A stretch of 64,000 nt of DNA from Hysterangium stoloniferum (lineage: Eukaryota; Basidiomycota; Agaricomycetes; Hysterangiales; Hysterangiaceae): the NCBI GenBank assembly GCA_015178975.1, contig WHVD01000119.1, positions 1 to 64,000 on the forward strand, read 5' to 3'. A program made the translations under genes and the position numbers. Under the pieces are notes generated by a model. That model was not told the DNA's origin and did not search any database. It saw nothing but the letters and a program-made list of their open reading frames with translations. Shown here one piece after another: positions 1 through 41,444 of this stretch (position 1 is its first letter; every line of letters starts with the position of its first letter).

Positions 1-17
1 TTATTAGGGCTTCAAAA

Positions 18-3000
18 ATGGATGGGTCCCAGGCGTTCACTATCAACTTAAAAATTGATGAAGCAACTGGACATTTCTCAACCCCAGTATCCGAATCTGA
101 GCAAGCTGCTGACCTAGAAGGCGTCCCAGAGAAATACCATGACTTCGCGGATGTTTTTAGCAAGCGAAAAGCTGACCGGCTTCCGCCTCACAGAGAATAC
201 GACTTAAAAATCGATCTTGAAGATGGCGCCCAGCCACCCCTAGGACATATTTACCCGCTTTCGTCCACCGAACTATCCGCAATCCGTGATTTCCTGGATG
301 AACATTTGTCCATAGGTTTTATTCGACCCTCAAAGTCTCCTTTTGGAGCACCTGTTTTGTTTGTCAGAAAAAAGGATGGATCCCTTTGACTATGTGTTGA
401 TTTTAGAGGACTCAATGCTGTCACCAAAAAGGACAAATATCCACTCCCACTTATATCTGACCTGCTCGATGCTCCGCGGAATGCCCGGATTTACACCAAA
501 ATAGATCTCAAGCACGCCTATCATTTGGTCTGGATTGCCGCGGGCGACGAATGAAAAACCACTTTTAGAACCCGCTATGGGGCCTTCGAGTGGTTGGTCA
601 TCCCTTTTGGACTCACTAATGCCCCGTCTGTTTTTCAGTGTTTTATCAACGACATTTTCTCCGACATGCTCGATGTATGCGTCATTGTTTACTTGGACGA
701 CATTCTTATCTACTCCGAGAATCCCGCGGAACACGACAAACAAGTCCGTGAGGTTCTCCGGAGGCTCAGACAACATGGTTTATTCGCAAATGGTAAAAAA
801 TGTACTTTTGACACGGACTCCGTGGAATACCTAGGTTTCATGATGGGACCCAATGGACTCCGCATGGACGAAACTAAAGTACAAGTCATCAAAGATTGGC
901 CCGAACCCTGAAAAGTTAAAGATATACAATCCTTCCTCGGCTTTGCCAATTTTTATAGACGTTTTATCCGTGGATATTCCGACATCACGGTACCCCTTAC
1001 CCGTCTTACGCGTAAGGGTACTCCGTGGAACTTTAACGATAAGTGTCAAAAAGCTTTCAATCTTTGAAAAAATTCTTTTTCCACAGCTCCTATTCTGTCG
1101 CATTGGAAACCGGACTTCCCGCTCATTGTTGAAACGGACGCCTCCGACTATGCACTTGGAGCCATTCTCTCTATCCAGGACTCCGACGGAGAAGTTCACC
1201 CCGTGGCGTTTCTGTCCCGGACTTTTACCGGAGCAGAGCTCAACTACGACGTTCATGATAAAGAACTTCTGGCAATCTTTTCAGCTTTCAAAGCGTGGTG
1301 ACACTATTTGGAAGGTTCAGGAGCTCCTATTGACGTTGTAACAGATCACAAAAACCTGGAATACTTTTCTACCACAAAACTCTTGACCCGTCGGCAGGCC
1401 CGCTGGTCTGAATATCTCTCCGCCTTCAACATGATTATCCGTTTTCGACCCGGCCGTCTCGGCGGCAAACCCGACGCTTTAACTAGACGATGGGACGTCT
1501 ATCCTAAAGAGGGGAGCAACGACTATGCAACAGTAAATCCGCACAACCTGAAACCTATCTTCACGAATCAACAACTTACCGCATCGGTCCGCGCAACTTT
1601 CCTCATCAATCCCATTGTCCGTGGAATTATCATTATGGATATCGAAAAGTTACATCAAGATATTCTATCGGCAATTCCGCTAGACCCAGTTACTAAAGCT
1701 CATCTGGACAATCCCGTGGACCCCGATCAACCTCGGTGGTCTCTTGATCAACATGGTTTCATTAGACTTGACAATAGGATCTATGTACCGGACTCCGACG
1801 GCCTCCGCCTCAGGATCCTTCAATACAAACATGATCATCCACTCTCAGGACATTTCGGGTACAACAAAACTCTATCATTAATAAGAAGAGAATATACTTG
1901 GCCCGGACTCCGTGGATTCGTTAAGCACTATTGTAAATCTTGCACTACTTGTCCCCGCTCGAAATCTCAGCGACACAAGCCATACGGCCTTTTGAAACAA
2001 CTCCCGGTACCGGAACACCCGTGGAATTCTATATCTATGGATTTCATTGAACACCTACCGGATTCCGAAGGCTTTTCCGCCATTCTAGTCATTGTTGACA
2101 GATTCTCAAAACAAGGTATATTCATCCCTACTTATGATACAATTACGTCCGTGCAGTTAGCGGAACTTTTCATTATCCACGTATTTTCCAAGCACGGAGT
2201 TCCGTCCCACATGACTTCTGATCGAGGATCAGAGTTCGTGTCTCACTTCTTTAGATCCCTCGGAAAATCCTTGGACATGACATTACATTTCACGTCCGGA
2301 CATCACCCGGAAGGTGACGGACAAACCGAACGCGTCAACCAGACATTGGAACAATACCTCCGCGTATATTGCAACTATCAACAGGACAATTGGAAAACCT
2401 TGTTACCACTTGCAGAGTTTGCTTACAACAATGCACCCTCGGCCACTACTGGCGTTTCCCCGTTCTTTGCAAATAAAGGATATAATCCAAACATTACAGT
2501 ACATCCAGAACGAAATCTCGCCTCTGTTCGTGCTCAAGAGTTCACCACGGACCTCCACGAGCTCCACGAGGAACTCCGGACTGCAATATTGTCCGCCCAA
2601 GAGCAATACCAACATTCAGCGGACAAACACCGGATCCCGCCACCAAACTTCAAGATTGGCGACCGTGTTTATGTCAAAGCTCAATTCTTCCGGACTACCC
2701 GTCCATCAAAGAAGCTTGCTGAAAAATATTTAGGTCCCTTTGAAATTATCGCACAAGTAGGTTCAGTTTCTTGGACTCTACGGCTTCCGGATAGCATGCG
2801 CGCGGTACACCCAGTATTTCATGTCTCTATGCTAGAACCTTGTACTGCTAACACTATCCCAGATCGCGTGCAATCTCCGCCTCCTCCTGTCGTCATTGAC
2901 GGAGAACCCGAGTTTGAAATCTCGCAGATTTTAGATTCAAAAATTGACAAGCGTCGACGCACTTGTAAACTGCTTTACTTGGTCAAGTGGGCGGGTTACG

Positions 3001-3119
3001 AGGGCACCGATGAAGAAACCTCATGGATTTTGGCCACAGAACTCGGTAATGCCATGGAAATCGTTACTGACTTTCATACAGCTTACCCACTCAAACCTGG
3101 ACCATTATCGTCTCTCTGA
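18..3119 (+). pseudogene. Chromovirus pol (RT, RNase H, integrase, chromodomain)
   Basis: The open pieces show reverse transcriptase with the catalytic YLDD motif near 690, RNase H, then a long open stretch from 1308 to 3119. That stretch holds a zinc-binding H2C2 region (CKSCTTC), an integrase core (MDFIEHLP with DRFSKQG, then a TSDRGSEF block) and a chromodomain (YLVKWAGYEGTDEETSW) just before the stop. The same order occurs in the related copy at 12302-15847. The gene is broken and serves as a fossil. Confidence 0.93.
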
Positions 3120-3327
3120 CCACACTCCGCGGACCCCGTGTTACGTTTGGACTCATTTTCACTATTCCCTGTCGCCCTATGTCTCTCTTTGCTTTTACAG
3201 GTTCTGACATGTCTTGTCAAGTCTTTAAGCGGATTCCCCGCGGACTTTGGCTTTGACTTTTAATTTTTATGTTTTTCTTTCACGCTTTGCTTTTATGATT
3301 CAAATTATTTTATTCTATACTACTTTT

Positions 3328-4341
3328 TCAGTCTACATTTATGGGACTGTTCTTTTTCCCTGCTTCCTCAGCTATCTCCTCTGGGAGCTCCGCGACCTCC
3401 GCGGCAACCCCGTCCTCATCCGATCCGGCATCCTCGGAACTCCCGACTTGCGGCTCCTTATACACATAGCCGCCATACTCTGCCAGGAACTTCCAAAACT
3501 CCTCGTGGAGTCCGGACAGCTCCTTTGCCACCACAATTTGGACCTTGTTGCTCTTCCGGAGCAACTCGTTTTGGGCCTCGATGCCCTCAGCGATCCATCC
3601 AAGGACCTCGTCCAACCCGGACAACCTGTCCGTCCCGGATCCCATGGCCTGCTCGTGCACAAGCGAGCACCTCGCCTTGAGGTGCGCGCATTGATAACAT
3701 CCCGGCCCCTGGCCGGCCTTTCGGTTGCATTCCGTGTTCCGGTCGTTGCAACCGGAACACCGTGGCTCGTTCCGCATCGGAAGACGGACTGGCGCCGCCT
3801 TCCTTGCCTTCTGTTGAAATGGTCAGTTTCCGCGGGTATTCCTTGGACATGAGGCCTACCTTTTGGGGGCTCTCTGGCTCCCCCTCGGACTCGGACTCCA
3901 CCTCTGTCGCTTTGCGCTGAAAATCACAAGTCAGTAAAAGTCGACAAGTTGAATATTGGGACTTACCTTTCCCGCAACAATGGCGGCCCTCTCCGCGGCC
4001 AACCGGGCTTTCTCCGCAGCCACCCGGGCGTTCTCCGCGGCCACTCGCGCAGCCTCCTCCGCCTCACATTCCCTCTCCTTTGCGGCCTCTTCCTCCGCGG
4101 CCAATGCTTCCTGGTACTCTCTGTCCAGGGCCTCCTCGGCCTCCCTCGCCTCTCTCTCTGCTGCTTCACGAAGCTGGCGCTGCTCTTCTCGCCGCGCCAA
4201 CAATTGGGCCGCCGTCCACGGCGCCCGATAAGGAGTGCCCGTGGAGGGCCCTGCTGTCGGCATTGGCTTGCGTGATGTTGGTTTTGGTCCCATAGTGACG
4301 AAGATGGGGGTAATAAAGAAGAAGAAATTTCTATTTTTCAA
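3328..4341 (-). CDS. Antisense coiled-coil / zinc-cluster ORF of chromovirus
   Basis: Open blocks on the strand opposite to pol fill the space between the pol stop and the 3' LTR. The first block (about 4294-3970) is Ala/Glu/Arg-rich and predicted coiled coil, starts MGPKP and ends at GKV. A short acidic middle block follows near 3920-3860. The last block (about 3777-3328) holds six cysteines spaced C-x2-C-x6-C-x9-C-x2-C-x6-C, the spacing of fungal Zn2Cys6 clusters. Blocks are separated by short GT...AG intervals, consistent with introns. The same arrangement recurs at 11082-12224 and in part at 18055-19028. No function is known to me; the basic residues typical of Gal4 DNA-binding clusters are sparse. 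Confidence 0.6.
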
Positions 4342-4502
4342 TTTTTTATATAGGCTCGTCGCGTTTGAACCTTACCTTCCAGATCACATGACTCTTTGAC
4401 ACATACGTGTAACCGACATGACTTTTGACACATGCGCGTAGCCGACAAGAACCTTATTTAGGTCTAGAGCCTCTTTGGGACTTCGGCATAAAGGGAGGAT
4501 AC

Positions 4503-5322
4503 TGTTACGACCGGACAAATCCCGCCGGACTCCGGGTACTAACTCGTACGCCCCCACGCGCTACAAGCACCAATCGTCTGTTTATAGGATTTCCCGCCCG
4601 GACTCCGTTACGTCAAGACTCGTTACGTTCGACCTCATTAAGACACATATCAGTCACCGGACTTCCCCCGGACCCCGTCTCTGTCTATGTCCGTCTTCGT
4701 CCCACGCATCAGTCACCGGAACCCGCTTAGAATCCCGTCACCGCTCTAATCGAGCCCCGTTCCCGTTTTAGTCAAATGACCTGTCACGATTTAGGACTCC
4801 GCTCCCGCTCCGTTTCCTGTTATGGGTTATGCTTTGTCACGATTCAGACTCCGCTCCGTTCCGTCCCGTTCCTAACACCAATTTGGTGTTTACTATTCCC
4901 GTTTTATGTTTTGCTCGTTTCGTCTCATTATTACTGGATTCGGTATGTCATGCATTCCACGGTCTATATAAACTGGCAGATGTTGTACATACAATCCAGT
5001 CAGAAAATTAGCTTAGATTCCCCCCAGTAATCTAATACATTTTCCTCTCTAAAACCCTACTCTTATCAGACCGCTCGCACTAGTCGGAGCCCACGGGCTC
5101 CGGCGCATCTATCTCTCTCGACTATCTCGATTCACGACTCTCGACTCACGACCTACGACTCACGACCCATGAACCCCCACCCGGACTCCCCGGGATTCCC
5201 GTCCGCCTGTCTGAAATTGGACAACACGATCTAGCGAGGGCGCAGCCTATAAGCTGAAGCCAAGTCCTACCGGATATCCCGCGGGTTGCTCCGGAAACCC
5301 GGCCTGAGTGTGTATCCTAACA
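4503..5322 (+). repeat. 3' LTR, family A (820 bp)
   Basis: It starts TGTTACGACC and ends ATCCTAACA. Further copies, all in the opposite orientation, lie at 9754-18049 (interrupted), 22254-23069, 34345-35151, 36678-37478 and 40608-41433, with a fragment near 34070-34270. This copy is the most CpG-rich. It contains a TATA box at 4965, a GAGCCC/GGGCTC hairpin near 5083-5100, the shared module at 5236-5265 and a hairpin at the very 3' end. Confidence 0.93.
4965..5008 (+). promoter_or_regulatory. LTR promoter: TATA box and predicted transcript start
   Basis: TATATAA stands at 4965-4971. The 11-mer AGTCAGAAAAT begins at 4998, 33 bp downstream, where an RNA polymerase II transcript would be expected to start. 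The same 11-mer is complementary to the primer-binding site of the family A element at 34345-37478, as in self-priming Tf1-type elements. The start site is inferred. Confidence 0.6.
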
Positions 5323-5397
5323 GGAGGTTCATGATGCTTCACTGTGGCCAGATAGTGTAAGACTCGGAATTAGGATCTTCCCATGCTGCTAGTTTAT

Positions 5398-6025
5398 GGA
5401 GGATGGTCACACTTTATTGAATATACAAAATTTTACTGAATAATCCTCATATTTTCTAAGTGAGTCTATTCCTTCTGCCATGACAACTTATTCTATGAGT
5501 TTATATTTAATTACCTGAAATTTCATCTTTAAAATGTGCATGCCTTTTTAAAATACACACAAATGACATACAGTAGTTACACAAGATTATTTGGGTTAAC
5601 CTAGATTATTTGGGTTAACCTAGATTATTTGGGTTAACCTAGATTATTTGGGTTAACCTAGATTATTTGGGTTAACCTAGATCATTTGGGTTATGACTTA
5701 ATCTTTGGATTATGATGTATTCTCTTGTATACAAGCAAACTTTCAAATATATTTCATATAATTTAAATTTAGTTGGTTTAGAGAGTTAACCAGAACTACA
5801 ATATCTGGGGTACCAATCCCCATTGTGCAATTTATTCCAAAAGAATAATCTACAGATGATTGTTTGACTAAATTTTGTCAGATATAGGATAAATATTAAT
5901 ATTTTTGCATTCTTCAGAGTGATACCTAGTCAACTGAATTTGATTAAATATTAATTTTACAACAAACAATATAAATATATATACTTTAGTGGATAAATAA
6001 ATTTTAAAGTTTTGGATTATCCTCC
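5398..6025. mobile_element. Non-autonomous TIR element R1, copy 1
   Basis: It is bounded by GGAGGAT and ATCCTCC with a 3-bp duplication TAT on each side (5395-5397 and 6026-6028). A second nearly complete copy at 38247-38770 has the same ends and a 3-bp duplication AAA. Partial copies lie at 27361-27560 and, inverted, at 37479-37677. It has no coding capacity and is AT-rich. Short TIRs with 3-bp target duplications fit the PIF/Harbinger or CACTA superfamilies, but I cannot assign it. Confidence 0.7.
5585..5696. repeat. 19-bp minisatellite inside R1
   Basis: The unit GATTATTTGGGTTAACCTA is repeated nearly six times head to tail. The R1 copy at 38247 has only about two degenerate units at the same place, so the array expanded (or contracted) after the copies separated. 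Confidence 0.9.
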
Positions 6026-9689: not shown

Positions 9690-10332
9690 GACCACCCACT
9701 TACCTTTTGTTGTGGAGTCTCTGGCTCCCCCTTGGCCCTGGACTCCACCTCTATGTTAGGATACACACACAGGCCGGGTTTCCGGAGAAATCCGTGGGAT
9801 ATCCAGTAGGACTTGGCTTCAGCTTATAGGCTGTGCCCTCGCTAGATCGTGTTGTCCAATTTCAAATGGATGGACAGGGATCCCAGGGAGTCCGGGCAGG
9901 GTTTGTGGGTCATAGGTCGCAAGTCGGGGGTCGTGGGTCGTAAGTCGGAGGTCGTGGATCGTGAGTTGGGATAGTTGAGAGAGATAGATGTGCCAGAGCC
10001 CGTGGGCTCTGACTAGTGCGAGCGATGTGATTTAAGTAAGGTTTTAGAGTGGAAAATGTTATTAGATTACTGGGGGGAATCTAAGCTAATTTTCTGACTG
10101 GATTGTATGTACAACATCTGCCAGTTTATATAGACCATGGAGTGAATGACATACCAAATCCAGTAATGGCGAAACGAAACTAACAAAACATGAAACGGGA
10201 GTCCGAATCGTGACAAAGCATAACCCATAATGGGAAATGGAGTGGGAGCAGAGTCCTAAATCGTGACAGGTCATTTGACTAAAATGGGAACGGGGCTCGA
10301 TTAGAGTGGTGACGGGATTCTAAGTGGGGTCC

Positions 10333-10897
10333 TGTTAAGTGCCGTGTCGGGAACTTATTCCGGAACTATCGGGAAGTCACCGGGAAGTCGGAAACTCGTG
10401 GATAGGGTCAGGACGTCGGCTTCAGCTTATGTGCTGCGCCTCTACGCAAATGCTCAATGTCCTTAATTTCGGAAGTGAACTAACGACGGAAGATATGGAT
10501 ATTCAGAGTTCCGAAGAGTTCCAAATATCGAGCGTACAGAAAGATGGGAGGAGGAATAAGAAACTAAGTCGATATCAGATCTAAAGTAAAGTACAAATTC
10601 GCGGAAACTAATATAAGTCTACTCGTTATTGTACTACAAACTGAGACCATAATAAGATGGAAACGGAAGTATTCTTAAAACGGAAATACAATAAGACATA
10701 TTAGGAAGACAATATTCCGAGACGGGAATACAACAACAAACGAGTGAATACTTGTCAACGGAACAAACGAAGAACGCGGATGATATGGTAACTATGATGT
10801 TCCGTAGTCGGAGGTCAAAGTTGGAAGTCGGGGATCGGAAGTCGGGAGTGGGAGACCGGAAGTCGGATATTGAAACATCCGGGAACGGGTCGTAACA
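10333..10897 (-). repeat. 3' LTR, family B (565 bp)
   Basis: It is bounded by TGTTAAGTGCC and GGTCGTAACA on the plus strand. It is nearly identical to 17249-17831. All the substitutions I noticed between the two are transitions. Confidence 0.93.
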
Positions 10898-11081
10898 GTA
10901 CCCCCCTGTTAGGCCGAAATCCCATAGAGGCGATTAGGTACTGAGTGTTTGAAGCGACGGCTGACTGTTATGTGTCGTGAAATTTACGCAATTATGGAGG
11001 TGAGAGTTTCGGTTATTATTCTGAGTATAAAAACCTCCAAATATTCGAATTAATGTTTTTGTTTCTTTATCCACGACTTGT

Positions 11082-12224
11082 ATGTCGATTCGTCGGCCGT
11101 TATTCATTACTACCCTGGAAAACTCAGATACCGAAATATCCATCCTGCAAAGAATGTCGAAGGTCGCAGAACTTCAACAAAAACGCCAGAAAATGGAGGA
11201 GTTGAAGCGACGACAGGAGGAGGAGGAAAAAGCGTTGATAAAAGAGTTGAGGGATGCGGAAGAGGCGGAAAAACGGGAATTGGAGCGGGCGAAGGCGGAA
11301 AAAGAAAAAGAGTTGGCGAGGTTGCGGAAAGTGATGGAGGATCGGAGGTTGAAGGAAGAAGAAGTGAAGAAACAACAAGAAGCTGAGGCGGCAGAAAAAC
11401 GTAAGGAGGTAAGGGAAGGAAAGGTGAGTCCGATTCCATAGATTTCCGTGGTTACAACCGATAACTGTTGTGTACAGTGAAAAGCCATGGAGGTGGAAGT
11501 AGAGGGAGAAGCTGGGCCTTCGAGTCCTAAAGTAAGTGCATCTACAAAAGGTCGGTAATTGACTAATCTTCCGCAACAGAAACAAAAGGTCAAGGCTCCG
11601 GAACGGATGGAAATTGCCCATGACACTCCATGTGTTCGATGTTCCGTATGGGATATAACGTGTTGGAAACAGAAGGTAAAATGGGGTGGAACTTGTTATC
11701 CTTGCGCGGTCCTCAAACTTCTGTGCACTCTTGCTGCGAAAAGGGTTCCGAAAAGCGAAAAGGCTCAAAAACCTACCATCGCGGAAGGTTCAGGAGCGAC
11801 CAAAACTGCGGAAACTAAGGTGCTGAGTACGGATGGTATGGGCGTTGAGCTCCTTAAGGAATTGGTCGATACAATGGTCTTCATCGGGGTTGAGATGCGG
11901 GAAATGCGGGAAACACTGGATCGCCATAATGAGATCCAGGAGAAGGGTTTCCGTTCGTTGGTCCGGAATTTCTGGAGGCAAAACGATTTCCTGGAGAAGA
12001 TGATGGTTAGTATCGGTGTAATCGCGGTATCCGAACGATTTGCCGATAAGGCAAAAAACCAGCCGAATGATCCATTGGCGGAGTGTGTGGAGCAGAGATG
12101 GGGGTCGGGAAAAGAGGAGAGTGAAGATGAGGAGGTACAGGATATGGTGGAAAGTGCGGAAATTGCTGAAGAGCTGGAGGTTGGGATGGAAGGTGGATTT
12201 GGGGTGTCAGAGACTTTAAGATAG
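11082..12224 (+). CDS. Antisense coiled-coil / zinc-cluster ORF, family B
   Basis: It lies between the pol stop and the 3' LTR of the family B element, on the opposite strand. The first block (11082 to about 11423) is a Glu/Lys/Arg-rich coiled coil ending EGKV. A short acidic block lies near 11480-11532. The last block (from about 11577 to 12224) has six cysteines spaced C-x2-C-x6-C-x10-C-x2-C-x6-C near its start, followed by an acidic tail. Short intervals with GT...AG borders separate the blocks, in the same relative places as in the copy at 3328-4341. Conservation of order and cysteine spacing in divergent families argues for a real protein. Its function is unknown to me. Confidence 0.65.
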
Positions 12225-12301
12225 ATTTAATAATATTTTTTTGACTTGCAAAACCTAAAACGAGTGTGAAAATGGAAGTGTCGGAAACTTGAACAGAAAG
12301 A

Positions 12302-15300
12302 TCAGAGTGATGATAAAGGTCCGGGTTTGCCTGGATAAGCCGTGTGGAAGTCAGTAACAATTTCCATAGCATGTCCAAGTTCCGTGGCCAATATCCATGA
12401 AGTTTCCTCGTCGGTACCTTCATAACCTGCCCATTTGACTAAATAGAGCAATTTACAAGTACGTCGGCGATTGTCGATTTTAGAATCCAAAATTTCGGAA
12501 ACTTCGAATTCAGGTTCTCCATCAATGATGACCGGAGGGGACAGAGGTTGAATACGTTCCGGGAATGAGTTAGGAACACAAGGTTCTAGCATGGAAACGT
12601 GGAAAACGGGGTGGACTGCTCGCATACTGTCGGGAAGACGGAGAGTCCATGAAAGTGAACCGGCTTGTGCTATAATTTCGAAAGGTCCTAAGAATTTCTC
12701 AGCGAGTTTTTTAGAAGGTCGGGTAGTACGGAAGAATTGAGCGGTTACAAAAACCTGATCACCAACTTTAAAATTAGGAGGCGGGATCCTGTTTTTGTCC
12801 GCGGAACGTTGATAATGTTCCTGTGCGGAAGAAATAGCTTTCCGAAGTTCTTGATGTAATTCGTCGAGGTCGGTAATAAATTCTTGAGCACGGACAGAAG
12901 CCAAATCTTGTTCGGAATGTACTGTGAGATTCGGATTATAGCCTTTATTGGCGAAGAAGGGAGATATGCCGGTGGTTGCATTCGGAGAGTTATTGTAGGC
13001 GAATTCCGCGATCGGAAGAAGGGATTTCCAGTTGTCCTGTTGATAATTACAATAGATGCGGAGATATTGTTCCAGTGTTTGATTAACGCGTTCCGTTTGT
13101 CCATCACCTTCCGGGTGATATCCCGAGGTGAAGTGTAGTTTCATGTCGAGGGCTTTTCCGAGGGCCTGGAAGAAATGGGAGACGAACTTGGAGCCTCGAT
13201 CGGAAGTTACGTGAGATGGAACTCCGTGTTTGGAAAATACGTGAATAATGAAAAGTTCCGCTAATTGTAAGGACGTGATTGTATCATGAGTGGGTATGAA
13301 AATGCCTTGTTTCGAGAATCGGTCCACAACGACTAGAATGGATGTAAAGCCTTCGGAAGTCGGGAGTTGTTCGATAAAATCCATGGAAATTGAATTCCAA
13401 GGTTTCTCTGGTATCGGGAGTTGCTTGAGAAGGCCGTACGGCTTATGCCTCTGGGTTTTAGAGCGTAAGCAGGTGGTGCATGACTTACAGAACTGAGTTA
13501 CGAAATCTCGGAGGTTGGGCCAAGTGTATTCCCTACGGATTAAACCAAGAGTGTTGTTGATGCCGTAATGTCCAGAGATTGGATGATCATGTTTATACTG
13601 AAGTACGCAGAGTCGGAGATTGTTGGAATCTGGAACGTAGATACGTCCATCGAGACGGATAAAACCTTGAGAGTCTTGTGACCATCGGGGTTGGTCGGGA
13701 TTGTCGGGAACTTCTAAATGTGGCTTGAGGGCTGGATCGGAAGTGAGTGCGGAAAGGATATCTTGATGTAATTGCTCAATGTCCATAATCATGACGCTAC
13801 GCATAATTGGATAGTAAAGGGAAGTTGCTCGGATAGATGCGGAAAGTTGTTGTGTTGTAAAAACCGGTTTCAGGTTATGTGGATTAACAACAGCGTAGTT
13901 ACTTTCCCCCTCTTTAGGATAGACGTCCCATCGTCGAGTCATGGCATCTGGTTTTCCACCAAGACGTCCGGGTCGGAAACGGATAATCATGTTGAAAGCG
14001 GAAAGAAATTCAGACCAACGGGCCTGCCGGCGGGTTAAAAGTTTAGTGGTAGAAAAATATTCGAGATTGTTGTGATCGGTAACGACGTCAACGGGAGTTA
14101 CGGAACCTTCGAGATAATGGCGTCAATGTTTGAAAGCTTCAAAAATTGCCAAAAGTTCCTTATCATGAACGTCATAATTGAGTTCGGATACTGAAAGTGT
14201 CCGAGAAAGGAATGCGACCGGATGAATTTCACCGTCGGAATCTTGAATGGAAAGGATCGTGGCAATTGCATAATCGGAAGCATCGGTTTCCACAATAATC
14301 GGAACATCAGGTTTCCAATGGGAAAGAATCGGGGCAGAAGTGAAAGCATTTTTTAAAGTCTGGAAGGCGGAGCGGCATTTGTCGTCAAAAACCCATGGTT
14401 GAGTTTTACAGGTAAGACGAGTGAGCGGTACTGTAATATCCGAGTAGTTCCGAATAAAACGATGGTAAAAGTTGGCAAAACCTAAAAATGATTGAATGTC
14501 CTTGACCTTCCATGGTTTGGGCCAGTCACGGACAACTTGAACCTTGGTTTCATCCATACGGAGACCATCAGGGCCGATGATGAAACCTAAGTATTCAATA
14601 GAATCCATGTTGAAATAACATTTTTTACCGTTGGCGAAAAGACCGTTTTTACGGAGTCTTCGGAAGACTTCATGGACCTGTTCATCGTGAAGAGCGGGAT
14701 CCTCAGAAAATACCAAAATGTCGTCCAAATAGACTATAACACATACGTCAAGCATGTCAGAAAATATATCATTAACAAAACGTTGAAAAGCGGAAGGGGC
14801 GTTGGTAAGGCCGAACGGCATAACCAACCATTCAAAGGATCCATAGCGAGTCTGAAAAGCAGTTTTCCATTCATCGCCCTCGGCAATTCGGACCAAATGA
14901 TAGGCGTGTTTGAGGTCTATTTTGGTGTAGATCCGAGCTTTCCGTGGGGTGTCGAGTAAATCGGTAACGAGTGGAAGTGGATACTTGTCTTTCCGTGTAA
15001 TGGAATTTAACCCTCTGAAATCGACACAGAGTCGAAGAGAGCCGTCCTTCTTTCGGACAAAAAGGACGGGTGCTCCATACGGAGACTTTGAGGGACGGAT
15101 AAAACCTATCGACAGATGTTCATCCAGGAACTCCCAAATAGATGAAAGTTCCGATTGGGATAATGGGTAAATAGGTCCTAATGGAGGGTTTGAACCGGGC
15201 TCAATATTGATTTTTAAGTCGTAGGGCCTATGTGGTGCAAGCCTGTCAGCTTTTTGCTTACTGAAAATGTCCGCGAAATCATGGTATTTTTCGGGAACTC

Positions 15301-15847
15301 CTTCCAGATCGGCTTTTAGCTCGGATAATTCTGGAGTCGCAAAATGTCCAGATGCTTCATCAACTTTTAAGCTGATTGAAAAACATTGCGAGCCATCCAG
15401 TTTACTCGCCCTAACAAATGCCGAAGCATTGATGAGAGAGATTTTTGGGGGCTCGGAAGTTTCGATAGAAGCCGGAGATGCTGTTGATGCCGAAAAGGCG
15501 TTGGCCGGAAAAGACGCTGCAGGAGGAACGGAAGTGTCGGGAGTCCGGAAAGTAATACTGCCCAATACCCAGTCAATCAACGGATTATATCGGGTGAGCC
15601 AGTTGTATCCAAGAACTGCCGAACAGCTAGAGTCCAACTGTGTTACGAAAAATGTAACCGTCTGGGATGTTCCACAAGGGAACCGGATAGACATGTCGCA
15701 GGCTTGAGTAATTGCCGTATTGCTAGTGCCGTCAAACAAACGCAAGGAAATTGCGGGAACAGAATGGAGTTTCAGATTATGTTTCGTGGCAAAGGTGGTA
15801 TCTACAAAACAGTGTGTGGAGCCGGAATCTATTAGAGCTCGGAACAC
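12302..15847 (-). pseudogene. Family B pol (protease, RT, RNase H, integrase, chromodomain)
   Basis: Reading leftwards from 15847: an aspartic protease core (DSGSTHCFVD), reverse transcriptase with YLDD, RNase H (VETDASDYAI), then integrase with CKSCTTC and DFIEQL blocks and a C-terminal chromodomain (LVKWAGYEGTDEETSW) ending at 12302. The order matches the copy at 18-3119. It is broken at one or two points and is part of a fossil element. Confidence 0.93.
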
Positions 15848-15987
15848 TAAATTTCCAAGAAAGTCAGAGACAAGTTTTACGAATAATGAATTGGGATTAG
15901 AGAGAGCGGACGTGTTGAGACGGACAACCTCGGAAACACGGAGAGAGTCAATGCAACCCTCTTTCCATGCAGATTCCGGAGGGTTGC

Positions 15988-17214
15988 TTACTCTTTTTTT
16001 GACTCCGTGGCGGGTTTTTCCTTAGACGTCGTAGTCGTAATGGAAGTTGCCGTGCGAGCCTTGGAAGAGCTGGATTTAACGGTACAGTCGGAAACCTTGT
16101 GTCCGCCTTTCCCGCAGAAAAGGCAGAGGTCGTTGTCCATACGTCGTTGTTTCTCCTTCGGGGTGAGTTTACCGTCAGTACCCAACAAATGGGAAATGTC
16201 TGGTTTGTCGGAAGTTGACTGTTTTTCCTTGTTGGATTTCTTGTCTTTCTTCCGGTCGGAATTTGATTTGCCAGTATTAGTGCCAGAGCCGGTATTATTG
16301 CCTGAGTTGTTGCCAGAAGACTTGCTAGTTGATGCCTTGTTGTTCTGAGAACGTTCTGTCGGGTTCTCTCGAGAGACCTCGGCTTTTCGTTCCCAATAAC
16401 GGGCATCGGATGTTTGAGCTTTCATCCGCATGAGTTGGAGAGTTTTTGGCTTCCCATCTTTGCAGATTTCGTCTTTAAGGCGTGACGGAAGTCCCATATA
16501 GAAATGGTGCCTGAGGGCGGAATCGTCCCATCCACATCGTGCGGCGAGGGTATTGAACTTGACGAGATAATCGGAAACTCGTTGATTGTCCTTCATCTTG
16601 AGCGTCATTAGTTCGTTTTCTGCTTCGCCGGATTGATCGTAAGGTCCGAAATTAGTTTCCAGTTCTTCCACGAAAGCATCCCAGTCGTCGAGCCATACGG
16701 GTGTCTCGTCGGATATTCCGGATAGTCCGGGTTCGAACCAATCCTGAGCGGTATCCTTGAGATATGAGAGTGCAAAATTGACTTTTCGACTGTCGGATTT
16801 AAAAGCATTGGGTCGATCACGGAAACTGAAACGGCATTGGAGAAGGAAATTCTTCAATTTTTTCGGATCCTTGCCGGTAAATGGTTCGGGTTCTTTGACT
16901 CCGGTGCGGGATGATTCTTTGCTATCCTTAGCGGATTTCAAATAGTCAGCGAATTTCACAATGGAGTTGATAAACAACATTTCAGTCGGTTCGTCGGGAG
17001 ATTTCTTTTTCGATGTCTCTGGCTGATCTTCTGCTTCGTTGTCGGAAGTATGGGGATCATTGGGATCCTTCGTTACCTCGGTAACCTCCTCGGTAACTTC
17101 TTCGATTGAAGCTGATGTTGTCGGCTGAATTGGGGTTTCTGGTTGGGTGGTGTAAAGTTGCAATGGAGATTGAAGTTGGGATGGTCCTTCGGCAGCTTTG
17201 CATTTGGGACCCAT
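15988..17214 (-). CDS. Family B gag
   Basis: A 408-residue open frame starts MGPKCK, 35 bp inside the 5' LTR. It has an acidic N-terminal part, a retrotransposon gag capsid-like region (about residues 110-260) and one CCHC zinc knuckle (CLFCGKGGHKVSDC) near the C-terminus, then a Ser/Thr/Lys-rich tail. Its length and single knuckle are usual for chromovirus gag. It is a virus-like particle component in intact relatives; here it is part of a fossil. Confidence 0.9.
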   Translation of the reverse strand: MGPKCKAAEGPSQLQSPLQLYTTQPETPIQPTTSASIEEVTEEVTEVTKDPNDPHTSDNEAEDQPETSKKKSPDEPTEMLFINSIVKFADYLKSAKDSKESSRTGVKEPEPFTGKDPKKLKNFLLQCRFSFRDRPNAFKSDSRKVNFALSYLKDTAQDWFEPGLSGISDETPVWLDDWDAFVEELETNFGPYDQSGEAENELMTLKMKDNQRVSDYLVKFNTLAARCGWDDSALRHHFYMGLPSRLKDEICKDGKPKTLQLMRMKAQTSDARYWERKAEVSRENPTERSQNNKASTSKSSGNNSGNNTGSGTNTGKSNSDRKKDKKSNKEKQSTSDKPDISHLLGTDGKLTPKEKQRRMDNDLCLFCGKGGHKVSDCTVKSSSSKARTATSITTTTSKEKPATESKKE

Positions 17215-17235
17215 GATGAGCGAGTCGCAGAGTTG

Positions 17236-17246
17236 AGATCTGATAT
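17236..17246 (-). other. Primer-binding site of family B, self-priming type
   Basis: Reading in element sense, the LTR end is followed by GT and then ATATCAGATCT. This 11-mer is complementary to a site inside the element's own LTR (17488-17498 and 10571-10582). The exact match is bounded by mismatches on both sides. It matches no tRNA end that I recognise. Confidence 0.7.
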
Positions 17247-17248
17247 AC

Positions 17249-17831
17249 TGTTAAGTGCCATGTCGGGAACTTATTCCGGAACTATCGGGAAGTCACCGGG
17301 AAGTCGGAAACTCGTGGATAGGGTCAGGACGTCGGCTTCAGCTTATGTGCTGCGCCTCTACGCAAACGCTCAATGTCCTTAATTTCGGAAGTGAACTAAC
17401 GACGGAAGATATGGATATTCAGAGTTCCGAAGAGTTCCGAATATCGAGCGTACAGAAAGATGGGAAGAGGAATAAGAAACTAAGTCGATATCAGATCTAA
17501 AGTAAAGTACAAATTCGCGGAAACTAATATAAGTCTACTCGTTATTGTACTACAAACTGAGACCATAATAAGACGGAAACAGAAGTATTCTTAAAACGGA
17601 AATACAATAAGACATATTAGGAAGACAATATTCCGAGATGGGAATACAACAACAAACGAGTGAATACTTGTCAACGGACAAATTACCAAATGCGGAACAA
17701 ACGAAGAACGCGGATGATACGGTAACTATGATGTTCCGTAGTCGGAGGTCAAAGTCGGAAGTCGGGGATCGGAAGTCGGGAGTGGGAGACCGGAAGTCGG
17801 ATATTGAAACATCCGGGAACAGGTCGTAACA
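17249..17831 (-). repeat. 5' LTR, family B (583 bp)
   Basis: It is the partner of 10333-10897 and carries 18 extra bases near 17680-17698. It is followed by the target duplication GGTCC. Confidence 0.93.
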
Positions 17832-18054
17832 GGTCCAGTGACTGATGCGTGGGACGAAGATGGACATAGACAGAGACGGAGTCCGGGGAAGTCCGGTGAC
17901 TGATATGTGTTGTAATGAGGTCGAATGTAACCAGTCTTGACGTAATGGAGTCCGGGCAGGAAATCCTATAAACAGACGATTGGTGCTTGTAGCGCGTGGG
18001 GGTGTATGGGTTAGTGCCCGGAGTCCGGCGGGATTGTCTGGTCGTAACACTCTA

Positions 18055-18359
18055 TCACTTTGCATTTGTGGGAGAATGTTTTCAGTGAGTAATTACTATA
18101 AAAAGACTCTTCACTTACCTTTCCTACAGCAATCACAGACACCTTGGCATGTTCCACAGCATTCTGAGCAGCCTCCTCTTCCCTCTTTCTCTTTTCCTCT
18201 GCCTCTTTCTCCATTGCCACCACCACCTGGTATTCCCTCTTTAACTCCTCCCCCACCTCCTTGGCCTTCTTCTGAGCCTCTTCACAACAGTGCCATTGCT
18301 CTTCACACTGCTCAAGTTTTTGAGCAGCCATGATCAGTGCCTGGTACATGGCCCCCATG
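18055..18359 (-). pseudogene. Antisense ORF remnant, family D
   Basis: It is the third copy of the antisense gene: a Glu/Lys-rich coiled-coil block ending AVGKV (near 18120) followed by a GGTAAGTGA-like border, aligning with the same place at 3970-4290. The remaining N-terminal part continues at 18848-18900 beyond an inserted LTR. It is degraded. Confidence 0.6.
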
Positions 18360-18847
18360 TGTTAGGACTGGAAAACCTGCCAGGACCCAGACCCCATCCT
18401 ATATGCAATTGACTCTATATCATATGAACCACACACCAGACCCTGCCCAGAAATTCCAGACCCCTTGTTCCCAATCCATCTTTGCCTGTTTGACATCTGG
18501 TTCAGTCTACCCCTTGTTTCTCAATCCATTTGACATCTGATTTATTGTCTTATTATATACCAGTAATGTCTTTTTGTCTCTCTGGATATGTAGTACAATA
18601 ATCTACTAGTCTATATATGTAGTCTAGCTACTATCTGTATTTATAATCTGATCAAAAAATGGACTAAGTATCTATCTAGTAATTTGCTCCTGCATATTCT
18701 CAGAACCCACAGGTTTCCCATCCACTCCTGTCTGAAGTTAGACAACACAATCTTGCAAGGGTGCAGCACATAAGCTAAAGCCAGGTCCTTCCCAAGAACT
18801 TTCATGGGTTTCCCCCAAAGACCCACCTGTAAGCCCCACACTTAATA
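18360..18847 (+). repeat. Solo LTR, family D
   Basis: It starts TGTTAGGACTGG and ends near CACTTAATA. It is related to 19029-19464. It interrupts the antisense ORF of the family D fossil: sequence before and after aligns continuously with 4200-4290 of the first element. A target duplication is no longer clear (CATG/TATG). Confidence 0.65.
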
Positions 18848-19028
18848 TGAAAGACCTGGCAGGGGCAGTTGGTTTGCATGGCATGGGTTTTGGTCCCATT
18901 TTGAGTCATTGATGGGATATGAAAGCAGAAGAAATTTTTTTTTTTTTCAATTTTTTATAGGCTCCTTGCATTTGAACCTTTCCAAGTTCTAGGGCCTCCT
19001 TGGGACATTGGCCTTAAAGGGAGGATAC

Positions 19029-22253: not shown

Positions 22254-23069
22254 TGTTAGGATACGTACAGGGCAGGTCTCCGGAGAAACCCACGGGATAT
22301 CCAGTAGGACTTGGCTTCAGCTTATAGGCTGCACCCTCACTAGATCGTGTTGTCCAATTTCAGACAGGCAGACAGGAGTCCCAGGGAGTCCGGGTGGGGG
22401 TCGTGGGTCAAGGGGTTGTAGGTCAGAGGTCGTGGGTTGTGAGTCAAGATGGCATGAGAGAGATAGATGTGCTGGAGCCCATGGCCTCTGACTAGTGCGA
22501 GCGGTGTGATTCAAGTAGGAATTAGAGCAGAAAATGTATTAGATTACTGGGGGGAATCTAAGCCGATTTTCTGACTGGATTGTATGTACAACATCTGCCA
22601 GTTTAAATAGACCGTGGAGTAAATGTCATACCGAATCCAGTAATAATGAAATGAAATGAGCAAAACATAAAATGGGAATAGTAAACACCAAATTTGGTGT
22701 TAGGAACGGGACGGAACGGAGTGGAGTCCGAATAGTGACAAATCATAAACCATAACGGGAAATGGAGTGGGAGCGGAGTCCGAATCATGACAGGTCATTT
22801 GACTAAAATGGGAACGGGGCTCTGTTAGAGGGATGATGGGTATTCTGAGTGGGGTCCGGCAACTGATGTGTGGGACGAGGTTGGACATAGACATAGACGG
22901 AGTCTGGTGGGTTTTCCGGTGACTGAAACACAACATAACGAAGTCGAACGTAGACAAGGCTGACGTATGGAGTCCAGTGGGAGTTCCGGTGAACTGATAA
23001 CGGGTGCATATAGGGTGCGGGTGCATATAAGACTGTGCCTGGAGTCCGGCGTGATTTCTGGTTGTAACA
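22254..23069 (-). repeat. Family A solo LTR
   Basis: It is an 816-bp LTR from TGTTAGGATACG to GTTGTAACA, flanked by ACATG and GCATG, a 5-bp duplication with one change. It is nested in the 4.4-kb element. It is CpG-depleted relative to 4503-5322. Confidence 0.85.
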
Positions 23070-23489
23070 GCATGCAAGAAGAGCAGTGAAACCCAAAGTA
23101 TTGACGACAAGCCACAGACCAACGTTGATGGACTATTGGTATGTATTGTCCAGTGGTAAGCATTGGACATTCTTTCAGTTGCTGACCTTGACTTCAAACC
23201 TTAGTCGTTGCCATTGACTAACCATGAGTTTGATCCTTGTTTAATGCACCAGCTATAGGTTGGCTTGGTTCGGTTTGTGGCGTCACTAACGTCTTGGCTT
23301 ATTTTGCCAGTGAGGCCTTGAAGGATGTAGTTTACATTTGAAAGGTTGTGTATTCAGTGTCAGCTTCGGTTTCAGTTTCTGAGGGCTCCAATGCAGTCAG
23401 GTTGGCCAATGTGTTTGTGGCATCTGTGAAGGGATTGACAAGGAGAGGAGGTAGTCCAAGCTGAGGTCTCCTTCTTGTTTCCGATCAAG

Positions 23490-28750: not shown

Positions 28751-31676
28751 CTGGATGCCAGAGTCTCTGGGTGCTCAATCCCTAAAATTCACTCCCTGGC
28801 CTCTAACAGCTGGACCTGGAGTCTTTCTGCATCTTGCCATCTTCCCATATGGGAATATGTCCATGCCAAGTCATTCTTAGAGGTCAGGGTCTCTGGATGT
28901 TCAAACCCTAAGATTCGCTCCCTTGCCTCTAAAACACAGACCTGCAGTCCTTCAGCATCAGACAATTTTCCAATATTGGAATAGGTGTTTTCCAAGTCAT
29001 TTCTAGAGGTCAGGGTCTCTGGGTGTTCAAACCCTAATATTTGCTCCCTCACCTCTAACACATGGGCCTGCAGGCCGCTGCATCTGGCAATTTTCCAATC
29101 TTGGAATATGTGTTTGCCAAGTCATTCCTGGAGATGAGAGTGTGGGGATGTTCATTCCCAAGGACTCTCTCCCTGCACTCCAAAACCTGGACCTGCAGCC
29201 TTTCAGCATCTAGCCATTTTCCCATGTTGAAATATGTCTTTGCCAAGTCATTCCTGGAAGTAAGGGTGTGTGGGTGTTCAGTCCCTAGGATTCTCTCTCT
29301 AGCCTCCAACACCTGGATATGCAGTCTTTCTGCCTCTGACCATCTGCCCATTTTTAAATATGTGTTCGCCAAGTCATTGCTGGAGACTAGGGTGTGTGAG
29401 TGTTCAGTCCCTAGGATTCTCTCTCTGACCTCCAACACCTGAACCAACAGTATTGCTGCATCTGCCCATTTTCCCATTTTGGAATATGTGTTTGCCAAGT
29501 CATTCTGGGACATCAGGGTGTCTGGCTGTTCTTTCCCTAGTACTCTCTCTCTGCCTCCAATGCCTGGACCTGCAGTATTGCTGCATCTGGCCATTTTCCC
29601 ATAGTTGAATATGTGTTTCCCAAGTCATTCCTGGAGATCATGGTGTCTGGGTGTTCAGTACCTAAGATTCTCTCCCTGGCCTCCAATACCTGGACTTGGA
29701 GTCTTTCTGCATCTGTCCATCTTCCCATATGGGAATATGTCTGGGCCAAGTGACTCCTTGCAGTTAGAGTGTATTGATGTTTAGTCCCTAGGACTCTCTC
29801 CCTGGATTTCAACACATGGACCTGCAGTCTTTCTACATTGTGCCATCTTTCCATATTGGAAAATGTCTGTGCCAAGTCAATCCTAGAGGTTTGGGTGTAT
29901 TGGTGGTCAGTCCCCAGAATTCTCTCCCTCACCTCCAACACCTGGGTGTGCAGTCTTTCTGCATCTGGCCATCTTCCCATGCTGGAACATGTATTTGCCA
30001 AGTGATTCCTGGAGGCAAGGGTTCTGGGTGTTCTGTTCCTAGGATTCTCTCCCTGGCCTCCAACACCTGGACCTGCAGCCTTTCTGAATCTGGCCATCTT
30101 CCCAGATTGTAATATATCAATGCCAAGTCATTCATGGACATTAGGGTGTATTGATGTTCATTCCCTAGGATTCTCTGCCTGGCCTCCAACACCTAGAGCT
30201 ACAGTCTCTCTGCTTCTGGCCATCTTCCCATATGGGAATATGTCTGGGCCAAGTGACTCCTTGCAGTTAGAGTGTATTGGTGGTCATTCTCTAGGACTCT
30301 CTCCCTGGATTCCAACACATGGACCTGCAGACTTTCTGCATCTTGCAATCTTCCCATATTGGAAAATGTCAGCGCCAAGTCAATCCTAGGGGTTTGGGTG
30401 TATTCATGTTCAGTCTCCAGAATTCTCTCCCTCACCTCCAACACCTGGATGTGCAGTCTTTCTGCATCTGGCCATCTTCCCATGCTGGAATGTGTATTTG
30501 CCAAGTGATTCCTGGAGGTAGGGGTATCTGGGTGTTCTGTTCTTAGGATTCTCTCCCTGGCTTCCAACACCCGGACCTGCAGTCTTGCTGCATCTGGCCA
30601 ACTTCCCATCTTGGCATGTGTCAAAGCCAAGTCACTCTTGGACATTAGGGCATATTGGTGTTCATTGCCTAGGATTCTCTCCCTAGCTTGCAACACCTGG
30701 ACCTCCAGTTTTTCTGCATCTAGCCATTTTCTCATATTGTAATAAGTCCTTGCCAACTCTCTCCTAGAGGCTAGAGTACTCTAAGTGTTCAGTTCCTAGG
30801 ATGTGCCCCTGACCTCTAACACCTGGACCTGCAGTCTTTCTGCATCTGGCCATCTTCCCATATTGGAATATGTCCATGCCAGGTAACTCTTGGAGCTTAG
30901 AGTGTATTGGTGTTCAGTCCCTAGAATTCTCTGCCTGGCTTCCAACACCTGGACCTGCAGTCTTTCAGCTTCTGGCCATCTTGCCATTCTGTAATATTTC
31001 CAAGCCAAGTGGCTCTTGGAGTTTAGGGTGTATTGGTGCCCAGTCCCTAGGATTCTCTCCCTGGCTTCCAACCCTGGACCTGGAGTCTTTCTGCTTCTGG
31101 CCATCTTCCCATATTGCAATATGTGCTTGCCAACTCTGTCCTAGAGCCCAGGGTGTCTAGGTGTTCATTCCCTAGGATTTTCTCCCTCACCTCTAACACC
31201 TGCAACTGCAGTCTTTCTGCATCTGGCCATCTTCCCATATTAGAATATGTCCATGCCAAACTACTCTTTGAGATTAGGGTGTAATGGTGTTCAGTCCCCA
31301 AGATTCTCACCCTTGCTTCCAACACCTCAACCTGCAGTTGTTCTGCATCTGGGTATCTTCCCATTCTGTAACATGTCCCAGCCAAGTCACTCTTGGAGGT
31401 TAGGGTGTATTCATGTTTATTCCCTAGGATTCCCTCCCTGGCTTCCAACACCTGGACCTGCAGTTTTTCTGCTTCTGGCCATCTTCCCATGTTGCAATAT
31501 GTGCTTGCCAACTCTCTCCTAGAGCCCAGGGTGTCTAGGTGCTCATTCCCTAGGATTTTCTCCCTCACCTCTAACACCATGCATCTGCAGTCTTTCTGCA
31601 TCTGGCCATCTTCCCATATTAGAATATGTCCATGCCAAGCTACTCTTTGAGGTTAGGGTGTATTGGTGTTCAGTCC
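28751..31676 (-). pseudogene. Kinesin-light-chain-like TPR array, broken
   Basis: About 23 tandem 42-residue (126-bp) TPR units occur on the minus strand, with consensus pieces DLANTYSNMGRWPDAE and LEARERILGTEHPDTL. Such TPR_10/TPR_12 arrays in fungi usually form the C-terminal sensor half of NB-ARC or NACHT proteins. No nucleotide-binding domain is present here. The reading frame changes at least six times between 28789 and 31601, so it is a pseudogene. Higher-order copies exist: a four-unit block repeats at about 504 bp (29717 and 30220), and a three-unit block at 378 bp (31244 and 31622). The upstream end is cut by a LINE at 31677. Confidence 0.88.
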
Positions 31677-34344: not shown

Positions 34345-35151
34345 TGTTGGGTTTCCAGAGAAACCCACGGAATATCCGGTAGGACTTGGCTTCAGCTTAT
34401 AGGCTGTGCCCTCACAAGATCATGTTGTCCAATTTCAGACAGGTGGATGGGAATCCCGGGGAATCCAGGCAGGGTTCATGGGTCGAGGGGTCGTAGGTTG
34501 GAGGTCATGGGTCAAGAGGTCGGGAGTCGAGATAAATAAGAGAGATAGATGTGTCAGAGCCCATGGGCTCCAACTAGCGTGAGCGGTGTAATTCAAGTAG
34601 GAGTTTAGAGCGGAAAATGTATTAGATTACTAGGGGAATCTAAGCCGATTTTCTGACTGGATTATATGTACAACATCTGCCAGACTATATAGACCATGGA
34701 ATGAATGACATACCAAATTCAGTAATAATGAAATGAAACTAGGAAAACATAAAACGAGAATAGTAAACACCAAATTTGGTGTTAGGAACAGGACAGAATG
34801 GAGTGGAGTCCTAATCATGACAAATCATAAACCATAATGGGAAACGGAGCGGGAGTGGAGTCCAAATCATGACAGGTCATTTGACTAAAATGGGAATGGG
34901 GCTCTGTTACAGGGATGACAGGTTTTCAGAGTGGGGTCTGGTGGCTGACATGTGGGACGAGGTCAGACATAGACAGGGACGGAGTCCAGTGGGTATTCCG
35001 GTGACCGATACACAATGTAATGAAGTCAAACATAGACAAGTCTGATGTACGGAGTCCGGTGGGAATTCTGGTAAACTGACAATTGGTGTGTATAGGGCAC
35101 AGGTGCATATAAGTTAGTGCCCAGAGTCCAGTGGGAATTCCAGTCATAACA
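34345..35151 (-). repeat. 3' LTR of gag-only derivative
   Basis: It is a family A LTR ending CAGTCATAACA. The outer end is shortened (TGTTGGGTTTCC, without the usual bases after TGTT). Confidence 0.85.
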
Positions 35152-36652: not shown

Positions 36653-36664
36653 TCTGTGAGTCTT

Positions 36665-36675
36665 AGTCAGAAAAT
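36665..36675 (-). other. Primer-binding site of family A, self-priming type
   Basis: In element sense, the LTR end is followed by GT and ATTTTCTGACT, complementary over exactly 11 nt to AGTCAGAAAAT in the family A LTR, about 33 bp after its TATA box. Confidence 0.72.
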
Positions 36676-36677
36676 AC

Positions 36678-37478: not shown

Positions 37479-37677
37479 TTAGGTAACAACCCAGACAATC
37501 TTGTTTAACCATGACATTTGTGCATATTTCAAAAGAGCATATAAGTCTTAAAGATGAAATTTTAGGGTAATGAAATATAAACTCATAGAATATGTCTGCC
37601 AGAAGGAATAGTTACACTTAAAAATATAAGGGCTTTTCAAAGAAATTTGTATATTCAATAAATTGTGACTATCCTCC
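37479..37677. repeat. Partial R1 element, inverted
   Basis: It ends ATCCTCC at 37677 and aligns in reverse with about the first 200 bp of R1. Its inner end is cut exactly at the LTR boundary (37478). Confidence 0.7.
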
Positions 37678-41433: not shown

Positions 41434-41444
41434 GAGTCACTGTA

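Follow-up and report, generated by a model that had tools for sequence, protein, structure and literature searches.

Two related families of chromoviruses, here called A and B and both represented in the window (the whole stretch of 64,000 nucleotides that was analysed), were shown by sequence comparison to carry a conserved antisense protein gene with its own TATA box and under purifying selection. The best explanation, to which we give about an even chance, is that of a selected antisense gene whose product reads the CGGA words of its own family and either counters silencing or drives transcription.

Elements A and B and their antisense gene

Element A lies on the plus strand of the window and element B on the minus strand. 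A Pfam domain scan gave matches to rve, SH3_Tf2-1 and Chromo in pol of both, and these integrase, SH3_Tf2-1 and chromodomain matches identify A and B as chromoviruses (chromodomain Ty3 elements), with the Ty3 order of domains and the chromodomain after the integrase. The pol proteins of A and B are 78–82% identical, the two are best regarded as related families, and their LTRs did not match each other in blastn. Element B is flanked by a 5-bp target duplication.

Other features of the window were observed around these elements. Element B (10333-17831) sits within an A-type LTR that continues on either side of it (9754-18049), and more A-type LTRs, which share about 82% identity with that of A, are found at 22254-23073 and 40628-41434. 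At 34349-37481, a pair of A-type LTRs surrounds a short internal region that matches gag (at most 60% to that of B) and, over 25 residues, the beginning of the B protease-reverse transcriptase; this element looks non-autonomous or deleted. A 126-bp unit (42 codons) is repeated in tandem about 23 times at 28800-31676, where the minus-strand frames are open and the wider region has a CpG ratio of 0.17, and a TTATTTGGGTTAACCTAGA-like unit, read by eye, recurs in a short tandem array at 5590-5690.

Table 1. Features of elements A and B and of copy C in the window. Fractions refer to the genomic copies analysed per family.
Feature	Positions	Strand	Remarks
A pol, reverse transcriptase to chromodomain, CGGA-loaded	1..3119	+	5 in-frame stops before end
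A exon 3 and stop: six-cysteine block, helical stretch, acidic tail	3328..3810	-	
A intron 2, 49 nt	3811..3859	-	GT-AG in 33/34
A exon 2, 19 aa, acidic	3860..3916	-	
A intron 1, 50 nt	3917..3966	-	GT-AG in 34/34
A exon 1, 109 aa, alanine/glutamate-rich coiled coil	3967..4293	-	
A antisense TATA box, 57 nt 5′ of ATG	4345..4350	-	33/34 copies
A 3′ LTR (ends approximate)	4503..5330	+	21 CGGA/TCCG per 828 nt
B 3′ LTR	10333..10897	-	98.2% identity (aligned bases) to B 5′ LTR 17249-17831
B antisense TATA box, 56 nt 5′ of ATG	11026..11031	+	34/34 copies
B exon 1, 114 aa, coiled coil	11082..11423	+	
B intron 1, 54 nt	11424..11477	+	GT-AG in 32/34
B exon 2, 18 codons, codon 1 a stop in the window copy	11478..11531	+	
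B intron 2, 48 nt	11532..11579	+	GT-AG in 33/34
B exon 3 and stop: six-cysteine block, long helical stretch, acidic tail	11580..12224	+	
B gag, protease-reverse transcriptase and integrase-chromodomain frames, CGGA-loaded	12302..17214	-	domain matches, word counts
Copy C, TATA box and exon 1 only, split by inserted LTR	18119..18959	-	

The gene consists of three exons, opposite to pol and between pol and the 3′ LTR in A and B alike (Table 1), so that the location originally predicted, antisense to pol and just before the 3′ LTR, is true of both. In A it runs on the minus strand from an ATG at 4293 to a stop at 3328, and in B on the plus strand over 11082-12224. The order of blocks is the same in the two elements: a coiled coil ending in GK(V), an intron, the acidic exon 2, a second intron and the six-cysteine block, which is followed in exon 3 by another helical stretch and then by an acidic tail (the last 45 residues contain 13 D/E versus 3 K/R in A, and 15 D/E versus 3 K/R in B). 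In the window copies of A and B both introns measure 48–54 nt, are bounded by GT-AG, interrupt the frame in phase 0 and fall at matching places, in accordance with the earlier description of GT...AG intervals. The cysteine spacing is C-x2-C-x6-C-x9-C-x2-C-x6-C in A, with x10 in place of x9 in B. In the window copy of B, exon 2 opens with an in-frame stop. Directly 5′ of the antisense TATA box of A, two imperfect repeats of about 30 nt were seen by eye at 4380-4460; they are possible regulatory sites.

Concerning the third copy (C, 18055-19028), the original prediction had attributed to it the same order of blocks and the same cysteine cluster as to the other two. The common order was borne out for A and B, but C contains exon 1 only, and the cysteine cluster is thus present in two copies of the window and not in three. 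What copy C displays, on the minus strand, is a TATA box followed by an exon 1 that begins with MGPKP and reaches its donor (18899-18119); an LTR 76–79% identical to the one starting near 19029 is inserted in this exon. After the donor the sequence passes into an A-type LTR. Exon 2, exon 3 and the cysteine block were looked for at this locus and none is present. A relative of copy C elsewhere in the genome (L077) keeps the three exons up to the cysteine block, with one cysteine lost.

Conservation of the gene in genomic copies

Copies were searched for in a genome of 111 Mb in 554 contigs, whose short introns and Zn_clus genes point to a fungus. Of 1355 candidates for A exon 3 and 877 for B, 150 each were scored; some 110 of the scored A candidates, as counted from the table of results, were without stop. 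The 34 A and 34 B copies analysed as full genes were the 30 best matches plus four chosen diverged copies per family, L077 being excluded; since they were chosen mainly from the best matches, they lean towards young copies. The GT-AG borders of both introns are kept in nearly all of them, as is a TATA box at −50 to −70 (Table 1), and the ATG is conserved in 33/34 A and 34/34 B copies. Each of the six cysteines is kept in 33–34 of the 34 copies in either family, so the spacing was not lost in most copies, which had been named as an outcome that would speak against the gene. After splicing, 24/34 A and 20/34 B copies have a frame that stays uninterrupted until at most 12 codons before the reference end. 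An AATAAA lies within 100 nt 3′ of the stop in 26/26 A copies with full exon 3, and in 0/27 B copies. Taken as a whole, the pattern in A and B is far more than chance would give. An enrichment of copies near contig starts was judged an assembly effect.

The association with intact elements was considered through pol. By eye, 31 of 150 SH3_Tf2-1 matches were counted as having pol open over 1150 aa or more; after subtraction of two loci too near a contig start and of one belonging to another family (L084), 28 were assessable, all of them A-type. In 27 of these 28 elements exon 3 adjoins pol on the opposite strand (by eye), and 24 of the 27 exon 3 copies are without stop. A frame between pol and the 3′ LTR in most copies, as in Ty3 elements with an antisense accessory gene, was therefore found, the count being of A-type elements. 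The exception (L085, C2:325080-326500) has an intact pol and an internal deletion that joins exon 1 to the last part of exon 3 without a shift of frame; an intact pol without the cysteine block indicates that the antisense gene is not needed in cis.

In four loci of other chromovirus families (L078-L080 and L084), which are about 37–41% identical to the B integrase, the antisense cysteine block was not found in the stretch fetched; L078-L080 are decayed. A search of IMG/VR with alignment A4 gave 94 pattern matches, none of which was confirmed.

Selection on the antisense protein

The dN/dS ratio was computed over the whole gene for 27 pairs of copies. Between diverged in-frame copies it was 0.18–0.22 in A and 0.19–0.36 in B, and thus not near 1 in the antisense frame, which upholds the suggestion of selection on a protein. 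Very close pairs gave 0.19–0.49, and pairs with L072 gave 0.50–0.57, values that are inflated because exon 1 of this copy is out of frame.

A context-matched null was also used, in which the substitutions of six chosen exon comparisons were placed randomly among sites of the same trinucleotide. Synonymous changes of the antisense frame exceeded this null in 6/6 tests (z 2.0 to 6.0). One other frame showed an excess in 6/6 tests; its third positions are common with those of the antisense frame and it contains stops, so that no open rival frame had a synonymous excess throughout the six comparisons. That the antisense frame is a chance frame opposite a sense gene, for instance the 201-aa plus-strand frame 3247-3852, is hardly credible: this sense frame is open in A, but it displays there a synonymous deficit (z about −2), and its counterpart in B has three stops. 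The same two facts rule out 3247-3852 as a real gene. It is very improbable, too, that the antisense RNA rather than a protein is what matters, by way of double-stranded RNA or transcription interference. For other elements, PMC7264820 raises the possibility of regulation by antisense RNA, but the dN/dS values of the diverged in-frame copies and the maintenance of cysteines and splice sites argue for a protein.

Exon 3 of A and exon 3 of B are homologous (hhalign 95%, E 2.9e-8), and B members are 27–34% identical to window A in a mixed alignment. Compared with the 78–82% identity of pol, this means that the accessory protein diverges much faster than pol; within each family it is, as judged from the substitution pattern, constrained despite this fast divergence. 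An antisense, spliced-looking, protein-coding gene under selection is thus strongly supported by the sequences.

Nature of the six-cysteine block

The Zn2Cys6 domain (Pfam PF00172) has the pattern C-x2-C-x6-C-x(5-12)-C-x2-C-x(6-8)-C, with which the spacing of A (x9) and that of B (x10) agree. The idea of a Zn2Cys6-like cluster holds for this spacing, but the profiles do not assign family membership: in the HMM check that had been proposed, the block of A scored 10.5 bits (E 0.69), below the Pfam Zn_clus cut-off of 21 bits, and B gave no match. Among nine family members, five had Zn_clus matches, all with E 0.69 or worse. Comparison by hhalign with five host zinc-cluster domains gave a weak match (probability 10%, E 0.003), and in a PDB profile search Ppr1 appeared at E 6.3, behind four coiled-coil or unrelated chains. 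Structure models were poor (mean pLDDT 53); in the low-confidence model of B, short helices begin at both C-x2-C motifs, as expected for such a cluster. The block is accordingly called Zn2Cys6-like here. Apart from the elements, one host locus (L002) contains several zinc clusters in tandem.

The position equivalent to Lys18 of Gal4 was counted from the second cysteine with the Gal4 numbering. It is occupied by Asn in 34/34 A copies, and by Asp (19), Asn (14) or Ser (1) in the 34 B copies. The loop between the second and third cysteines of A and B is less basic than in Gal4, and the one between the third and fourth is longer. According to PMC5559640, the typical targets of Zn2Cys6 proteins are CGG triplets, bound by dimers that form through the coiled coil after the cluster, and Pho7, with Asn where Gal4 has Lys18, reads TCG(G/C)(A/T). 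From this CGG-binding habit, the Asn of Pho7 and the residues at the Lys18 place, we infer that the antisense protein would bind the CGGA words of its own family.

CGGA words in the DNA of A and B

CGGA/TCCG accounts for 10.3% of CpG tetramers in window A and 10.9% in B, versus 3.5–4.1% in two host sets. Its density is 19–32 per kb in pol, antisense gene and LTR of A and B (25 and 32 per kb in the LTRs of A and B, respectively) versus 6–7 per kb in the host. The words are found on either strand and in each of the three codon phases, and are sparse in the internal noncoding stretches that contain the antisense promoter. Autoregulation of that promoter through CGGA was considered and is unsupported, there being few words at the promoter.

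The excess in coding sequence survived two synonymous-codon nulls. When protein and codon counts were kept constant, CGGA was the top over-represented tetramer of A pol (64 versus 43 expected, z 3.8), and in B gag-pol (93 versus 58, z 5.7) it came second, behind GGAA (z 5.8). With junction dinucleotides also fixed (strict null), the figures were 64 versus 50 (z 3.0) in A pol and 93 versus 74 (z 3.8) in B. Single 6-mers pass a plain shuffle and lose significance in the strict null. The LTR counts are explained by an order-2 model and not by an order-1 model (p 0.0015 and <0.0005). The persistence of the pol excess when the protein is held constant bears on the notion of a Gal4-like activator, acting on the LTR promoter or on host genes only, with the words of the gene body as by-products. 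Such an activator would agree with the acidic tail, the coiled coil and the CGGA density of the LTRs, but is made unlikely by the excess in pol.

In the genome, CGGA is first among CpG tetramers in 60/60 young A/B loci (L009-L068), with shares of 9.2–13.5%. Nine diverged A/B copies (L069-L077) have shares of 7.2–11.5% and ranks 1–5, on few counts, and the A element without cysteine block (L085) has 6.8%. In decayed copies of chromoviruses without the gene, the share is 0 in L078 and L080 and 6.8% in L079 (3/44 tetramers). Sixteen controls were taken: seven copia loci (of 150 listed), one other chromovirus and eight host zinc-cluster loci. In 16/16 the CGGA share was 0–4.1%, with ranks 10–22 or none, and their longest frames gave z −3.2 to +0.2. 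The comparison with controls took 11 of the 60 A/B loci, and the strict-null and rank run took all 60 plus the diverged copies.

Two alternatives concern the meaning of the words. One sees in the CGGA load a by-product of mutation or codon context in young CpG-rich DNA, unrelated to the antisense protein. The common ancestry of A and B in pol, which brings them close to one observation, the failure of single 6-mers in the strict null and the order-2 account of the LTR counts all agree with it. Nevertheless it seems improbable, as the tetramer itself passes the strict null, the A and B LTRs are both CGGA-rich in spite of having no mutual blastn match, and no CGGA excess occurs in host genes (CpG 0.85–1.02) or in four copia loci (CpG 0.63–0.84). 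The other, somewhat less doubtful, is that the protein acts on the RNA, the particle or the cDNA of the element, as a nucleocapsid, a Rev-like or a nuclear-import factor, while CGGA serves independently as a signal of packaging or composition. Proteins that bind RNA or take part in assembly would equally be suited by six cysteines and coiled coils, Pfam does not accept the block as Zn_clus, and the words lie within transcribed pol; against this stand the cysteine spacing, equal to that of a DNA-binding cluster, and the distribution of the words over both strands and all codon phases. The reading of the product as a regulator that binds its own DNA finds in the CGGA load a support that is unexpected and indirect.

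Family-specific words and shared ancestry

Window A contains 16 instances of CGGASTCC and B a single one; for TCGGAA the counts are 30 in B and five in A. The CGGA of A is followed by C or G in 39/64 cases in pol and 17/21 in the LTR, and that of B by A in 49/101 cases in gag-pol and 14/18 in the LTR. Candidate family words are CGGACTCC and CCGCGG for A, and TCGGAAGT for B. When synonymous codons were swapped between A and B pol, GGAA was B-rich (z −4.4; null 95%, 3.1) and no 6-mer passed; when all differing codons were swapped, CGTGGA and TCGGAA barely exceeded the null (3.0 versus 2.9). In aligned pol, 22 CGGA sites coincide among 63 in A and 60 in B, a fraction of 0.36 versus 0.215 for the median CpG tetramer. 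This above-median fraction indicates that common ancestry accounts for part of the load, which appears to have been partly inherited and partly turned over at equal number.

CpG content and decay

The CpG ratio is 0.97–1.32 in 60/60 young A/B loci, 0.20–0.89 in the nine diverged copies and 0.63–0.84 in the four copia loci, which are without the gene. The high CpG of the young loci fits an escape from methylation-driven decay; the diverged copies do decay. In other copies, the decay of CpGs within CGGA was 10% versus 11% for other CpGs in A, and 20–24% versus 17–20% in B; CpGs of CGGA decay as fast as the others, and so no local protection is seen. Four other gene-less retroelements with long open frames (L084, L087-L089) have a CpG observed/expected of 0.19–0.25, as if adapted to CpG loss.

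Proposed role of the product

According to the preferred reading, in which the selected antisense gene encodes a reader of its family's words, the product would dimerise through its coiled coils, fold a Zn2Cys6-like cluster, carry an acidic tail and enter the nucleus, where it would read CGGA-type words spread over the LTRs and the body of its own family. Binding to many words would mark the family's own copies and either counter silencing or drive sense transcription, and protein and word set would change in concert, each family's protein serving that family. The product would be, then, a self-recognising DNA-binding regulator, possibly anti-silencing; the effect of binding may be activation, to which the acidic tail points, or an anti-silencing action like that of VANC. 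The strict-null result strengthens this main reading, while the fraction of shared sites and the Asp found in most B copies weaken it.

A more specific proposal, put forward tentatively, is that the antisense zinc-cluster protein knows its own family by CGGA words sown over LTRs and coding sequence through synonymous choice, and shields that family from silencing or activates it in spite of silencing, as an LTR-element counterpart of VANC with co-diverging protein and words. The low CpG of the four gene-less loci (L084, L087-L089), compared with that of young A/B loci, fits this counterpart of VANC; the values of the four gene-less copia loci and of the diverged A/B copies are against it. If true, an LTR retrotransposon would tag its own DNA, coding sequence included, for its own protein, and A and B would illustrate how a protein and its motif diverge together when host and parasite are in conflict.

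Comparison with known systems

The antisense protein resembles Gal4, Ppr1 and Pho7 in its cysteine spacing, in the coiled coil that follows and in the CGG-type words, and Pho7 in particular by the Asn at the Lys18 place in A and in some B copies. It differs from all three in having an N-terminal coiled coil and no significant profile match, and in being encoded antisense in a retroelement.

HBZ of HTLV-1 and APH-2 of HTLV-2 are spliced, with a coiled-coil zipper, and are not known to contain a zinc cluster. Both, named in PMC11963269, are antisense regulatory proteins encoded at the 3′ end of a retroelement. The HTLV antisense promoter lies inside the 3′ LTR (PMC7264820), whereas the antisense TATA box of A and B is internal.

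VANC proteins are, according to PMC5735166, fast-diverging anti-silencing proteins encoded by VANDAL elements, which recognise short family-specific motifs accumulated in their own family. The likeness resides in an element protein combined with family-specific short words in the element's own DNA, and such a word load is present in A and B. On the other hand, VANDAL elements are DNA transposons whose motifs lie mainly in noncoding tandem repeats, and A and B are LTR elements; loss of methylation was shown for VANC (PMC5735166), and would be a prediction for A and B.

The closest positional parallel is with the plant Ty3 elements Retand, Grande and RIRE2, which have additional antisense ORFs (the TRP28 domain; Grande gene23), placed after pol and before the 3′ LTR on the strand opposite to gag-pol, and shared by almost every cluster of the Retand lineage; for the Grande antisense gene, an own promoter and a nuclear protein are reported and DNA binding is suspected (PMC11963269 and PMC7264820). 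In the main texts of these two papers, the words zinc, fungi and intron are absent, and a search of exon 3 of A and B for TRP28 gave no Pfam match at E up to 10. The plant elements are non-chromoviruses, while A and B are chromoviruses of a likely fungus, with three exons, a six-cysteine block and dispersed CGGA. In the literature searched, in which subscription papers were sparsely covered and which included PMC3248453 and PMC5408684, no fungal antisense accessory gene, or one with a zinc-cluster-like block, was found; antisense accessory genes at this site are known from plants, and the fungal, zinc-cluster-like case appears to be new. The antisense accessory genes of plant Ty3 elements are without known function, and here the cysteine block and the family words turn the question of function into a test of binding.
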